The notes beneath the pieces are model-generated. The model was not told where the DNA came from. It did no database searches and worked only from the letters and a program-made list of their open reading frames with translations. Both the position numbers and the translations under genes were made by a program. This document shows positions 1,940-6,154 of a stretch of 6,983 bases of DNA, in pieces (position 1 is the stretch's first letter; each line of letters starts with the position of its first letter). Origin of the DNA: Actinomycetota bacterium (GTDB lineage: Bacteria; Actinomycetota; Actinomycetes; Nanopelagicales; Nanopelagicaceae). The stretch is from assembly GCA_009705165.1 (NCBI GenBank), contig WLCU01000049.1:1-6983 (forward strand), given 5' to 3'.

Positions 1940-3214
1940 ATGACTGCAGCTATCGCCCCCATCTTTATTGCGATTGCATCCCTTGTTCTTCGTCTACGTA
2001 ATCTAGCCGCGCCTAAAGGCTTTGTTTTTGACGAGGTCTACTACGTAGATGGTGCTCGAGATTTTCTGAAATTCGGCGTGGAAATTGCCGGAAATAAACC
2101 AGAGTTCATTGTTCACCCACCAGTTGGAAAGTGGCTCATAGCAAGTGGAATTCAAATCTTTGGCGACAGTGAATTTGGTTGGCGTTTTGCAACGGCAATC
2201 TTTGGAACGTTGCTCATTCTGCTCTTTGCCAGATTAGTTCATGCTCTTTTTTATTCACCACTTTTGACCTCGCTCGGTGCCTTTCTCATGGCTTGTGATG
2301 GTTTGGTGCTAGTCCATTCTCGAACTGCGCTCTTAGATCTATTTTTAACTTTCTTTGTTTTACTGGCCGTATATTTCTGGCACCAACAAAGACATTGGTT
2401 GGCTGCAATCGCCTTAGGTCTTGCCATGGGAACAAAATGGAGTGCAATCTATTTTCTGATAGCAATAATTTTTGTCTCTCTTTATCGAATCTTTTCAGAG
2501 CATCCAAGTAAAGACTTAATTCGCCCAATTATTAAAAAGTTTTTTCAATATGGATTGCTACCAATTCTTGTCTACCTAACTACGTGGTCAGGTTGGTTTA
2601 TTAGTAATCGTGGTTGGGATCGTGATTGGAGTTCAAATCCGCTCATTGCCTGGATTCACTATCACTCAGAAATGTTAAGTTTTCATACTGGACTAACACA
2701 AAAACATTCATATCAAGCTAACCCTTGGAGTTGGATGGTGATGGGAAGGCCAACATCATTTTTTTATGCCTCACCCAAGGGTTGTGGAAGTGATAGCTGC
2801 GCGCAAGAAGTTTTAGCTTTAGGCACACCTTTGCTGTGGTGGGCTGGAACTATTGCAGTTGCTGTTGTAATCGGTTTTTGGATTAAGTCACTCATTCTCC
2901 GCGCTACAGATCCGGCACTCAATATCATCGTTCTAGGAATGATTGCCGGCTACTTGCCTTGGTTCTTTTTTCAACAGCGAACTGTCTTTACTTTCTATGC
3001 GGTGATTTTCGAACCATTCGTGATACTGGCGCTGGTTTATTGTGCGAAATTACTGCTGGATAGTTCGCTTAAACCCGGAGTTTCACAGGCTTTAGTTGCA
3101 GCCTTTGTTACCGTAATTTTCCTGAACTTTATCTACTTCTTGCCAGTCTTTACCGGAGAAGTAATCACTTACGACGCTTGGTTACAAAGAATGTGGTTTA
3201 CGTCTTGGATCTAG
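1940..3214 (+). CDS. pmt: Polyprenol-phosphate-mannose: protein O-mannosyltransferase (GT39, Pmt)
   Basis: Integral membrane glycosyltransferase that transfers mannose from a polyprenyl-phosphate donor to Ser/Thr of exported proteins on the outer face of the membrane. The 424-residue product begins with a hydrophobic segment. It then has the GT39 signature FVFDEVYYVDGA with the acidic pair D31-E32, followed by HPPVGKW at 59-65 and VHSRTALLD at 125-133. WHYH-like text occurs as IHYHSEMLSFHTGL at 239-252, then YQANPWSWMVMGRPTSFFY at 258-276 and FTFYAV at 350-355. It ends YDAWLQRMWFTSWI, matching the actinobacterial Pmt terminus. About ten membrane segments are apparent. It is shorter than mycobacterial and corynebacterial Pmt (about 500-520 residues from memory), apparently through shorter loops, since every motif is present. 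The ATG at 1940 is used because upstream in-frame sequence only overlaps rsmI. It is divergent from rsmI, as in mycobacteria. The stop abuts the convergent sepX stop. Confidence 0.92.
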   Translation: MTAAIAPIFIAIASLVLRLRNLAAPKGFVFDEVYYVDGARDFLKFGVEIAGNKPEFIVHPPVGKWLIASGIQIFGDSEFGWRFATAIFGTLLILLFARLVHALFYSPLLTSLGAFLMACDGLVLVHSRTALLDLFLTFFVLLAVYFWHQQRHWLAAIALGLAMGTKWSAIYFLIAIIFVSLYRIFSEHPSKDLIRPIIKKFFQYGLLPILVYLTTWSGWFISNRGWDRDWSSNPLIAWIHYHSEMLSFHTGLTQKHSYQANPWSWMVMGRPTSFFYASPKGCGSDSCAQEVLALGTPLLWWAGTIAVAVVIGFWIKSLILRATDPALNIIVLGMIAGYLPWFFFQQRTVFTFYAVIFEPFVILALVYCAKLLLDSSLKPGVSQALVAAFVTVIFLNFIYFLPVFTGEVITYDAWLQRMWFTSWI

Positions 3215-3991
3215 TTATTCGTTTGCAGCGCGAGCTTGCTTAAGTTTTTCAACCGCTTGATCTGCTAACTGTTGATCGAAAATTTCATCTCGAGAAGGTG
3301 ATGCAGCAGCTAACGCTTCGCGTTCCAAGCGCTCTTGTTCATCACTCCATGCTCCAGGAATTGTTAAATCAATTACGCGCTTTGGAATAATAGCTTTTGG
3401 CGCAGATACATAAATCGGTGTTGGAACTTCTGCAGGCTCCCATGTTTGTCGAATTGCGGCAGTGCCTTTAGGCATAAGTACAACGCCCTTAAGTTCGCGT
3501 TCTGACAAAGGAATCCAATGTTCTTGAGAAGATTTTGGAGTAACAACTTCAACTAAATTAGTTGCAGAGACACCTGATGTTCTGCGGTGGAGTTGTTGAA
3601 TACGACGTTGTTGAATTTTGTCGGCGACAGTTTGGCGGCGAACATTTGCAATATAAATTAGAATTCCAGTTGCAGGAACCAATGTATAGACAAATGGCAT
3701 CGTGCTCATAAATCCACCAACTATCGTTGTTATAAAGGAAAGAAAGAGAATAGAAAAAGTTATTCTGCGTCGTAACAAGAGTTGAGCAGTTTTTGCTTCG
3801 CGATCTAAGTCAATGTGTATGGAACTTGAACCAGTTTCACCATTTGGTGATGAACTTGCGACAACACGAAGTGCGCTTTTAAATCGTTCAACTGATTTTC
3901 CAGAAAATTCATTGCGGTCATGAATCCAGCGGGGCACAAAATATGCGACCCACATACCGATGATCGCAAGATAGATAAGTCCGGAAGTCAT
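3215..3991 (-). CDS. sepX: SepX/GlpR-family divisome membrane protein
   Basis: Actinobacteria-specific membrane protein. In Streptomyces SepX is needed for division septa, and in Corynebacterium the related GlpR is the membrane receptor for the gephyrin-like protein Glp that binds FtsZ. The 258-residue product starts MTSGLIYLAIIGMWVAYFVP, very close to the family's SGLIY...AWAAYLVP first membrane helix (residues 3-21). Next comes RWIHDRNEF and SVERFKSALRV, the family's conserved N-terminal loop. A basic LLRRR precedes two more helices at about 77-95 and 98-116. A basic stretch and a long hydrophilic tail follow; the tail holds the family motif TWEP..VPTPIYV....I.P.RVIDLTIPGAW at 183-215 and ends in a charged helix. 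The ATG at 3991 fits the conserved N-terminus better than a TTG at 4000. There is no Shine-Dalgarno sequence, but TATCTT lies 8 bases upstream. It is the third gene after glp and rimJ. Family identity is from recognition; function is inferred from homologues. Confidence 0.86.
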   Translation of the reverse strand: MTSGLIYLAIIGMWVAYFVPRWIHDRNEFSGKSVERFKSALRVVASSSPNGETGSSSIHIDLDREAKTAQLLLRRRITFSILFLSFITTIVGGFMSTMPFVYTLVPATGILIYIANVRRQTVADKIQQRRIQQLHRRTSGVSATNLVEVVTPKSSQEHWIPLSERELKGVVLMPKGTAAIRQTWEPAEVPTPIYVSAPKAIIPKRVIDLTIPGAWSDEQERLEREALAAASPSRDEIFDQQLADQAVEKLKQARAANE

Positions 3992-4039
3992 GATGGCCAA
4001 AGATAAAGGAAACCACGCTCAAAACTTGGGATTTGGCGC
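3992..4039 (-). promoter_or_regulatory. Possible internal promoter in the rimJ-sepX gap
   Basis: This 48-bp gap is the widest inside the glp-rimJ-sepX cluster. On the minus strand TATCTT (plus-strand bases 4000-4005) fits TANNNT and ends 8 bases before the sepX ATG, consistent with a near-leaderless start. No Shine-Dalgarno sequence or convincing -35 element is visible, and no hairpin terminator is seen after rimJ. It could equally be plain spacer in a polycistronic message. Confidence 0.25.
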
Positions 4040-4618
4040 CTACTTAATTAAGGGATTTTCTTTCACGAAAACTAGGTGGTCTCTCCATGACCCCCCGATA
4101 TGCAAATATCTTGGCCGCTCTCCTTCAAAAACATACCCAGCTTTTTCCGCTACTCGACGCGAAGATGCATTTTCTGGGCGAATATTGATTTCAATTCTAT
4201 GAAGGTTGAGTTGTTCAAAAGAGAAATGGGTTAAAGCCTCTACGGCTTGGGTGGTAAAACCCCGATTCGCATAGTTCTTATCGATCCAATATCCAATATG
4301 CCCGCCCCGCAAAGCCCCATAAATCACACCGCCAAGAGAAATCTGCCCAATGAGATTGCGTTCATGCCAGATTGCAAATGAAAATACCCGACCAGCTCTG
4401 GCATCGTGGTTGATTGCACGGACCATGGCAAAAAATGAAGGAAGTTGAGTCGGATCTATCGCATTTTCTCCAGAAATAATCGGGATTGTTGCCTCCCAAG
4501 GTGCCAGCCAGTCGCGGTTCTCAAATCGAACCTGATTCCATGCACTTCTATCTCGAAATCTGAGCGCCTGTAGACGCAAATCTGCCGACTTTATAACTAC
4601 CGGCCATGGGGTGGACAT
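4040..4618 (-). CDS. rimJ: GNAT-family N-acetyltransferase, RimJ/RimL type
   Basis: Predicted acetyl-CoA-dependent N-acetyltransferase. The family includes the ribosomal-protein alpha-N-acetyltransferases RimJ and RimL, but the true substrate is unknown. The product is 192 residues. It opens with DLRLQALRFRDRSAW (13-27) and NRDWLAPWEAT (34-44), the usual start of actinobacterial RimJ-like proteins. The core strand IGQISLGGVIYGALRGGHIGYWID (90-113) follows. The acetyl-CoA pyrophosphate loop is YANRGFTTQAVEAL (116-129), where the usual G-R-G-x-A/G-T reads N-R-G-F-T-T. LHRIEINIRPENASSRRVAEKAGY (139-162) and YLHIGGSWRDHLVF (171-184) complete the fold. The ATG at 4618 lies 7 bases after the glp stop, and the WP following the start resembles relatives. 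A TTG at 4645 would overlap glp by 20 bases. Neither start has a Shine-Dalgarno sequence, so coupling to glp is likely. Its place between glp and sepX is conserved in mycobacteria and streptomycetes. Confidence 0.87.
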   Translation of the reverse strand: MSTPWPVVIKSADLRLQALRFRDRSAWNQVRFENRDWLAPWEATIPIISGENAIDPTQLPSFFAMVRAINHDARAGRVFSFAIWHERNLIGQISLGGVIYGALRGGHIGYWIDKNYANRGFTTQAVEALTHFSFEQLNLHRIEINIRPENASSRRVAEKAGYVFEGERPRYLHIGGSWRDHLVFVKENPLIK

Positions 4619-4625
4619 ATAAATA

Positions 4626-5537
4626 TTAAATATATCTGCGTTCAAGTACTACAACGGTGACTTTATCGCCGGCTTTGAGCTGGGTGTCTTTTTCACCAAC
4701 TGCAATAAAAGCCGTGGCATCAGAGAGAGTTGAAAGCTCCTCTTGATTAGCTAGCGGAACTACTGAACTTCCATCCTCTGATAAAACGCCTCGGATATAA
4801 GAACGCACACCTTCGGTAGAAGCGATGGCTTTTTCCAGCTTTGCTTTGATGCTGGGGCGGTGAATCGTTGATGCACCCAGCATTGTTCGAATCATTGGGC
4901 GCACAAATAACTCAAAAGAAATATATGAAGCTATTGGGTCCCCCGGCAAAGTAACAACTGGAGTTTTATCTGGTCCGATAAGACCAAAGTTATGGCGCCC
5001 ACTCATTTCGATGGCCATATCTACTGTTGTAATTTCACCCATATTTGAAAGTGTGCGAGAAATGAGATCAAAAGAATCATCGTGGCGCTCACCACTAATA
5101 ATTATTAAATCTGCACGAACCAGTTGATCCTCAATCAGGTTTTGAAGCTGTGCCTCATCGTCTGGAATTGAGTGGACTCGATAGGCAACTGCGCCAACTT
5201 CACGAACCGCAGTCGTTAGCATCCAAGAATTAGTCTCAAACTCTTCGGTGCCTTTTAAATCTTTTCCGGGTTCGACTAAATCTGGCCCTGCCGACATAAC
5301 CACAACGCGGGGATGTGGCCTAGTTGGAAGGTGATCTAGCCCGATGGATGCAGCTAGACCGATCTGAGTAGAACGGATTCGGCTACCAGCTTTCATAACT
5401 AAGCGATCGCCAGCATAAATATCTTCGGCAAGAGTTGCTCCGTGCGCATCCAAAAGCGGCATGTCAAAAGAGTCTAAGGGTGTACAAATTTCGAGAAGTG
5501 AAGTTAAGAATTCATCAACCCGCGTGTGCTCTGCCAT
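4626..5537 (-). CDS. glp: MoeA-like/gephyrin-like protein (Glp) lacking domain II
   Basis: MoeA proteins insert molybdate into molybdopterin; the actinobacterial paralogue Glp instead joins FtsZ and a membrane receptor in division. This 303-residue protein is about 100 shorter than usual. Residues 1-40 are the N-terminal part of domain I, ending LAEDI. The next residues, YAGDRLVMKAGSRIRSTQIG (41-60), are the canonical re-entry into domain I after domain II. The whole of domain II, with its MDGYA motif, is therefore absent. Domain III spans about 70-220 and domain IV about 225-303. Catalytic motifs have diverged: SxGDELVxPG is MSAGPDLVEPG (81-91), SGGVSVGxxD is SGERHDDSFD (148-157), PGKPxxFG is MSGRHNFG (178-185) and LPGNP is LPGDP (197-201). 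Structural strings such as ASYISFELFVRPMIRTMLG (203-221) are kept. The ATG at 5537 follows GGTGGG and the family start; an upstream start at 5621 would overlap the divergent gene. It reads without a frameshift and sits upstream of rimJ and sepX. Confidence 0.85.
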   Translation of the reverse strand: MAEHTRVDEFLTSLLEICTPLDSFDMPLLDAHGATLAEDIYAGDRLVMKAGSRIRSTQIGLAASIGLDHLPTRPHPRVVVMSAGPDLVEPGKDLKGTEEFETNSWMLTTAVREVGAVAYRVHSIPDDEAQLQNLIEDQLVRADLIIISGERHDDSFDLISRTLSNMGEITTVDMAIEMSGRHNFGLIGPDKTPVVTLPGDPIASYISFELFVRPMIRTMLGASTIHRPSIKAKLEKAIASTEGVRSYIRGVLSEDGSSVVPLANQEELSTLSDATAFIAVGEKDTQLKAGDKVTVVVLERRYI

Positions 5538-5605
5538 AATCCCACCATACTTGTTGCAGTTAGTAATCTTTGGGATTTGAGCATGGATTGGTCGAAAGGG
5601 AAGCA
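5538..5605. promoter_or_regulatory. glp / 5-FCL divergent intergenic region
   Basis: This 68-bp gap serves two divergent genes. On the minus strand TATGGT (plus bases 5544-5549) fits TANNNT and lies 6 bases before the glp ATG, so glp may be leaderless; the overlapping GGTGGG could instead act as a weak ribosome binding site. On the plus strand TAATCT at 5564-5569 is a possible -10 for the cyclo-ligase gene, followed by a clear Shine-Dalgarno AAAGGGAAG at 5595-5603 just before the ATG. No good -35 boxes are visible. In mycobacterial relatives galU lies at this place; no trace of it remains. Confidence 0.4.
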
Positions 5606-6154
5606 ATGAATCAGGGCACACTCAAGAAAGAGCTTCGTGAACGCTATCGCCGTGAACGAGTACAACGCTTTATCCCCTCTAATTTCAATGTAATTTTGAA
5701 ATGCCCTGAAATTGTTAGTGCATCCACAATCTGTTCTTATTTTTCCTATGCCGAAGAACCAAGTACTACCGAAATTAACCAAACTTTAATTAAGGATGGA
5801 AAGAAACTGCTACTCCCTCGGGTTTCTGGCGATGAAATTGAATGGGTCCATTGGAATGGAGATTCCACCCAACTTAAAATCACCAAGAAACTTACTGAAC
5901 CAATTGGTCCGGCAGTTACAGATTTAAGCGACGTTGGTGCGGTAATAACTCCTGCGTTACGTATCGATCAAGAAGGATTTCGTTTAGGCCAAGGTGGCGG
6001 TTTTTACGATCGCGCATTGCCGAATTTACCTGGCTGGACAATTGGCTTAGTGCACCCAGGTGAACTATCTAGCGAATCAGTTCCGCGCGAAGTTCATGAC
6101 ATTCCACTTAATGCCGCGGCAACACCTTCACTGGTTGTGCGTTTTAACCGTTAG
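5606..6154 (+). CDS. 5-formyltetrahydrofolate cyclo-ligase (5,10-methenyl-THF synthetase)
   Basis: ATP-dependent cytoplasmic enzyme converting 5-formyl-THF to 5,10-methenyl-THF, returning this storage folate to one-carbon metabolism. The 182-residue product has the usual family length. KKELRERYRRER (7-18) is the basic N-terminal helix. YFSYAEEPSTTEI (45-57) is the folate-site segment. LLLPRV (68-73) precedes the central strand. ITPALRIDQEGFRLGQGGGFYDRAL (114-138) is the diagnostic signature, with the glycine-rich RLGQGGGFYDR ATP/phosphate loop. VHDIPL (163-168) is the conserved C-terminal element. The ATG at 5606 is preferred over one at 5570 because a good Shine-Dalgarno AAAGGGAAG ends 2 bases upstream and the family starts with the basic helix. 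It is divergent from glp, as in mycobacteria, where galU usually intervenes. Its last 11 bases overlap the convergent acyl-CoA dehydrogenase gene. The gene is often annotated fau, ygfA or mthfs. Confidence 0.94.
   Translation: MNQGTLKKELRERYRRERVQRFIPSNFNVILKCPEIVSASTICSYFSYAEEPSTTEINQTLIKDGKKLLLPRVSGDEIEWVHWNGDSTQLKITKKLTEPIGPAVTDLSDVGAVITPALRIDQEGFRLGQGGGFYDRALPNLPGWTIGLVHPGELSSESVPREVHDIPLNAAATPSLVVRFNR

Follow-up and report, generated by a model that had tools for sequence, protein, structure and literature searches.

Glp of Corynebacterium glutamicum (Cgl0883; PDB codes 8bve and 8bvf), a gephyrin-like divisome protein of actinobacteria, is the closest described system to the gene considered here. 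As described in PMC10522489, its domain II spans residues 46–145, a loop of domain IV (M361 to Y369) binds FtsZ and serves both of its partners, the first loop of its partner GlpR is long and acidic, and the distal dimer interface, a long way from where domain IV contacts FtsZ, harbours the putative active site. That 2023 discovery paper leaves the enzyme role of Glp open; Megrian et al. (2025; PMC11733289) predict from active-site conservation that Glp has been repurposed and its enzyme role lost. More distant relatives are the molybdenum (Mo) insertases MoeA, plant Cnx1E and the E domain of gephyrin. In gephyrin, subdomain II is reported to hold one half of the substrate site, and its removal to abolish filaments and receptor clustering while receptor binding stays (PMC12441120). 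Here we describe a short glp gene in a window of 6,983 nucleotides (the whole stretch of DNA analysed; contig WLCU01000049.1) from a member of the Nanopelagicaceae (Planktophila and kin), a family of small-genome freshwater bacteria. Its product lacks domain II. We consider it likely (probability about 0.68) that this Glp orthologue is a scaffold only, tying FtsZ to its predicted partner GlpR, and has no Mo-insertase activity. The features of the gene are as follows.

4626–5537, minus strand: glp, short form, encoding a 303-amino-acid Glp orthologue without domain II in an intact open frame.
5409–5420, minus strand: junction (residues 40–43), the site of the missing domain II, from a two-piece alignment to full-length relatives.
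5310–5318, minus strand: PHP (residues 74–76), taken as the second proline-rich hinge between domains I and III and placed here after PMC10522489.
4755–4805, minus strand: domain IV hairpin (residues 245–261), from the predicted model; the FtsZ-tail binder in C. glutamicum Glp, with an altered tip here.

Judged by its sequence, the gene is best called a divergent Glp rather than a MoeA. Pfam models of domain III (MoCF_biosynth) and domain IV (MoeA_C) match the protein, and MoeA_N, the Pfam model of domains I and II, has no match in it. The best curated NCBIfam family is Glp (NF045515), with a score of 264.5 bits that falls below the cut-off of 475 and an alignment that covers profile positions 138–403 only; full-length Glp proteins from the same bacterial family score 507, 511 and 543 bits, all above the cut-off. 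A preliminary description, made from the letters of the DNA, had labelled the protein MoeA-like; NF045515 is its best family, and on the tree it falls in the Glp clade. Among solved structures, C. glutamicum Glp is the best sequence match (125 bits), and Foldseek returned the same protein, with an FtsZ peptide, as the best match of the predicted model.

BLASTP aligned the window protein with a full-length relative from genus g29 (our label, as for other genera below) in two pieces, residues 7–40 to 8–41 and 27–301 to 127–404. Relative to three full-length proteins of the family, the gap falls at one clean junction and measures 98, 98 and 103 residues, lengths taken on L060, a protein identical to that of the window at 297 of 303 residues, which also stands in for the window in the tree and the residue counts. 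The preliminary description had read an open frame passing directly from LAEDI (residues 36–40) to YAGDRLVMKAG (41–51), with about 100 residues gone and no frameshift; both points are confirmed, and the junction, which it put near bases 5415–5420, is placed near 5409–5420. The identical junction occurs in all 21 short rows of our alignment. Because an Asp-Ile pair coded GAYATY stands at both borders of domain II, as seen in four full-length genes, the exact crossing point is indeterminable; possibly the domain was deleted between these short repeats. We rejected a diverged domain II, as the description had also raised, since the alignment leaves no residues for it. Domain II was not found as a gene of its own in the window's genome (a draft, 62% complete, in 146 contigs), where the sole MoeA_N match is a separate MoeA.

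The short form has a single origin on the tree. An even draw of 151 family genomes gave Glp matches in 143. Among its 83 good genomes (completeness 90% or more, contamination 5% or less), 79 carry the short form, three the full-length form (G064, G079 and G091, all of genus g29) and one no match (G152); a fourth full-length frame comes from G073 (genus g38, genome 87% complete). A draw from the order (201 genomes) brought in no other family, and no short form from outside the family was among the matches listed from 296 genomes of the class, 28 of them Nanopelagicaceae: the outside matches listed start at query residue 23 or later and have frames of at least 401 amino acids, the one exception being a frame that sits at the edge of a contig (G308). 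The 21 short rows form one clade (support 100/100), which groups with the full-length family Glp of g29 and g38 (91/86) and apart from the clade of second MoeA proteins (100/100; 16 such loci were fetched and 15 entered the tree, L205 having no match). Its stem branch is 0.8 per site, indicating fast change, and genera g33, g36 or near kin are the first to split within it.

The short gene is under strong purifying selection, with a median omega of 0.028 and a maximum of 0.079 over 27 pairs. The predicted model is confident (predicted local distance difference test, pLDDT, 86.6; predicted template modelling score, pTM, 0.85) and retains the folds of domains I, III and IV; it is a monomer model, and the dimer form is one that we infer. 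Prolines P20, P74 and P76, which we placed in the two Glp hinges, are present in 21/21 short rows, a count that left out 6 of the 29 full-length rows as distant or long-branch. P74 occurs in none of the 15 second-MoeA rows and P76 in all 15. Selection for only part of the protein, as proposed in the preliminary description together with a search for orthologues sharing the junction, is thus supported by the family-wide clade, the purifying selection and the predicted fold. It gains further from two parallel absences: the operon lacks moaC and mog, and most carriers lack molybdenum cofactor (Moco) genes.

Three chains of MoeA or gephyrin in the PDB (2nqm_A, 9gw9_B and 1xi8_B; 265–322 residues in the library) also give good matches to the short model. 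In these chains domain II may lack modelled coordinates, which would fit a mobile, separable module.

The presence and absence of Moco genes indicates that, within the family, domain II persists in those genomes that combine a Moco pathway with Glp as their sole MoeA, and is gone elsewhere. The four genomes with intact full-length Glp (G064, G079, G091 and G073) have MoaC and MoaA, and their sole MoeA_N match is the glp frame itself. By comparison, MoaC and MoeA (MoeA_N) are both missing from 54 of the 79 good genomes with short Glp, and the other 25 have MoaC and a separate, distant MoeA. A set of 40 chosen genomes, 34 with short Glp, gave a similar division: MoaC and a separate MoeA_N protein occur together in 8/34 and are both absent from 26/34, and MoaA presence parallels that of MoaC and MoeA in all but one (G078). 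Unexplained is G152, which has MoaC and no Glp or MoeA match. A published acI genome paper reports Moco synthesis for only one of its four strains (PMC5301498). The window's own genome has MoaC and a separate MoeA, and belongs to the 12 of 16 fetched loci in which the separate MoeA lies in its own moaC–mog cluster. One such second-MoeA locus is L221 (positions 3199–5338); the second MoeA may be an old paralogue or a later arrival. Likely Mo enzymes were counted only as PF00384 frames of 950–1255 amino acids. Such molybdopterin oxidoreductase frames, here of 950–1250 amino acids, occur in G079 and G073 and not in G064 or G091. PF00384 as such is weak evidence on Mo enzymes: 39 of the 40 genomes match, mostly through one protein of about 780–810 amino acids, which we take to be the size of NuoG.

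The domains that remain have also changed. We took catalytic positions from a published list for plant Cnx1E (PMC13262936) and counted them over all 29 full-length rows. Equivalents of Cnx1E G296 (28/29 full-length rows compared with 1/21 short rows), S328 (27/29 and 4/21), S400 (23/29 and 2/21) and D274 (23/29 and 10/21) are depleted in the short form, and at the equivalent of K294 most full-length rows already have Gln. Thus, in contrast to MoeA, Cnx1E and the gephyrin E domain, the window protein lacks domain II and has lost most of the conserved active-site residues. Domains I, III and IV had been described as well formed, which is correct for their predicted folds; domains III and IV show erosion at their active-site residues, and the Tyr of the domain IV hairpin is lost.

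Gene order around glp tells the same two forms apart. The neighbouring features of the window are listed here.

4040–4645, minus strand: rimJ-like gene for a GNAT acetyltransferase, lying between glp and glpR (Pfam Acetyltransf_3, 70.3 bits, above the cut-off).
3215–4000, minus strand: glpR-like gene, likely the membrane partner of Glp (SepX_GlpR_2, NF050099, 98.8 bits, cut-off 150).
5570–6154, plus strand: 5-formyltetrahydrofolate cyclo-ligase gene, a divergent neighbour (TIGR02727, 107.7 bits, over the cut-off).

The glpR-like gene, two genes downstream of glp, encodes three transmembrane-like stretches (hydropathy windows 1–26, 80–98 and 100–120), and the rimJ-like frame, taken from the earliest start available to it, overlaps the last bases of glp. 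Proximity to glpR and the kept hinge prolines are features that the window gene shares with C. glutamicum Glp. Downstream of short glp, rimJ and glpR come next in the same orientation in 79/79 loci with at least 2.5 kb of sequence there, which hold 77 different Glp frames, and the gap between glp and rimJ is at most 15 nucleotides, compared with 715–883 nucleotides in g29. The nearest relatives on the tree, the full-length Glp proteins of g29 and g38 (L140–L143; L134–L136 and L140–L142 are the same three contigs fetched twice, leaving three distinct g29 loci and one of g38), have the order galU, glp, moaC, mog, rimJ, glpR in g29. These proteins differ from the short form in having domain II, in adjoining moaC (with mog in 3/3 g29 loci) and in having no other MoeA_N protein beside them in the genome; the g38 contig breaks off inside moaC, before rimJ and glpR would be reached. 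Among 26 fetched loci from the class, moaC frames occur in 19 and mog frames in 18. No moaC or mog frames were found near short glp in the short loci. In all four distinct full-length family loci a galU-like frame stands between the cyclo-ligase gene and glp. Of 86 short loci, 7 retain it, each from g33, g36 or near kin; it is gone from the window and the other 79 short loci, where the neighbouring frames are at most 47 nucleotides apart.

The most economical account of these patterns is a bifunctional ancestral Glp whose Moco job was dropped or handed over, with domain II lost along with it. The family ancestor would have had one dual-purpose Glp in a galU–glp–moaC–mog–rimJ–glpR operon. On the line to most of the family, perhaps during genome reduction, Moco work would have been discontinued or taken over by a separate MoeA. 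The operon would then have shed moaC, mog and domain II, which in relatives makes up half of the active site, and the remaining active-site loops of domains III and IV would have decayed, while the scaffold stayed in place along with the gene of its receptor. A bolder version of this account describes a moonlighting protein taken apart: the Glp of the early-branching genera g29 and g38 would be at once the only Mo-insertase and a divisome scaffold, from which a later ancestor cut domain II, moaC and mog to leave a minimal scaffold. We give this version an even chance.

Several results weigh against a scaffold-only Glp that ties FtsZ to GlpR. The hairpin is altered in 21/21 short rows, so that, judged by sequence, FtsZ binding may be weaker, different or gone; the FtsZ tail is changed in 15 of 17 short-Glp rows; the first loop of the window GlpR is short and basic (isoelectric point 9.7), which, with the hairpin tip, sets this system apart from that of C. 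glutamicum; and the NF050099 score of the window GlpR is below the cut-off. On the enzyme side, the 25 short-Glp carriers that still have Moco genes mean that pathway loss is no precondition for the short form today. G078 has a MoaA match without MoaC or MoeA, which is unexplained, and domain II is still there in G047, an outgroup that has neither MoaC nor MoaA; the rule linking domain II to Moco therefore does not hold generally outside the family. Finally, a column test showed no enrichment of losses among MoeA-shared residues (17/40) relative to residues confined to Glp (17/42); it was run twice, first without six of the 29 full-length rows and then with all 29. In view of this null result, the decay argument rests on a few published catalytic positions and we make no claim of significance.

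The partner data also bear on the foremost alternative, that Glp is still a scaffold but has lost FtsZ and serves GlpR or another partner alone. A search of 23 genomes recovered FtsZ itself in 22. The protein has the tail LDVPDFLK or LDIPDFLK in two short rows (g33 and g36), as it does in all three full-length rows from the family and in two outgroups. Of the other 15 short rows, 14 have I/M-D-V/I-PDFM; in the window's own genome (L173; rows L160–L181) the tail ends in PDVMK. The hairpin Tyr is present in 3/3 full-length family rows, 13/26 class rows and 0/21 short rows. From these sequences, either the partners have changed together or their contact is weakening. Loss of FtsZ binding would suit the lost Tyr, the changed tails and the retention of glpR in 79/79 loci, but the tail is still conserved as a DxPDFM/L motif, the hairpin is still predicted (strands 245–252 and 258–261) and one loop serves both partners in C. 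glutamicum (PMC10522489). We regard this alternative as unlikely.

A continuing role in making Moco, for instance as a dimer partner of the separate MoeA, which would supply domain II across the interface, could be entertained for the 25 good genomes, and for the window's own, in which MoaC and a separate MoeA coexist with short Glp. It is very improbable given the 54 good genomes that keep short Glp with neither a MoeA_N protein nor MoaC, and the decay of active-site residues in domains III and IV. Equally improbable is that domain II was removed to improve the scaffold, for example by preventing gephyrin-like filaments, rather than because the enzyme had become useless. Gephyrin filaments do form through subdomain II (PMC12441120) and the stem of the short clade changed fast, but moaC and mog vanished from the same operon and lineage and the active site decayed, which points to the enzyme role, and there is no sign of such filaments for bacterial Glp. 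An assembly error, strain deletion or decaying pseudogene, which the draft state of the window's genome might have suggested, is ruled out by the low omega (about 0.03) and by the junction, which is the same in complete one-contig genomes and many species, in 21/21 short rows forming one clade and in a form carried by 79/83 good genomes; the roughly 300 extra bases that an accident would leave in close relatives are not seen in those 29 of 37 genomes of the same genus (own included) that match residues 1–303 unbroken; of the rest, five break off at contig ends and three lack a match.

Short Glp as a scaffold without insertase activity agrees with the repurposing prediction of Megrian et al. 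(PMC11733289). A protein that lacks half of the active site and is yet tightly conserved, even in genomes without MoeA and MoaC, would have a conserved role other than Moco synthesis. The sister genera g29 and g38, in which full-length Glp is the only MoeA and adjoins moaC, point the opposite way for their own Glp, and the two forms are a natural pair for separating moonlighting from repurposing. If true, the moonlighting reading of the full-length form would overturn the published view that Glp-bearing bacteria have at least two MoeA copies and that the enzyme role of Glp was lost group-wide. Gephyrin needs subdomain II for scaffold assembly (PMC12441120) and short Glp has none, so MoeA-derived scaffolds need not be alike.

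In titles and the starts of abstracts from our literature searches, no natural Glp or MoeA without domain II was described, in line with the preliminary description, to whose author none was known; a word search for ‘Nanopelagic’ in the Glp papers PMC10522489 and PMC11733289 gave no hits. Databases hold many short copies under automatic names, such as a 303-amino-acid protein (P0042) entered as gephyrin-like molybdotransferase Glp of Candidatus Nanopelagicaceae. In three drafts (G203:C20, G173:C21 and G150:C1) the glp match has one internal stop each, through error or decay. Nine further loci (L075, L086, L101, L102, L106, L110, L129, L138 and L139) carry the short glp of the family under record titles of Streptomyces griseus, Bifidobacterium breve or a beta proteobacterium, and are likely to be mislabelled or misbinned drafts.
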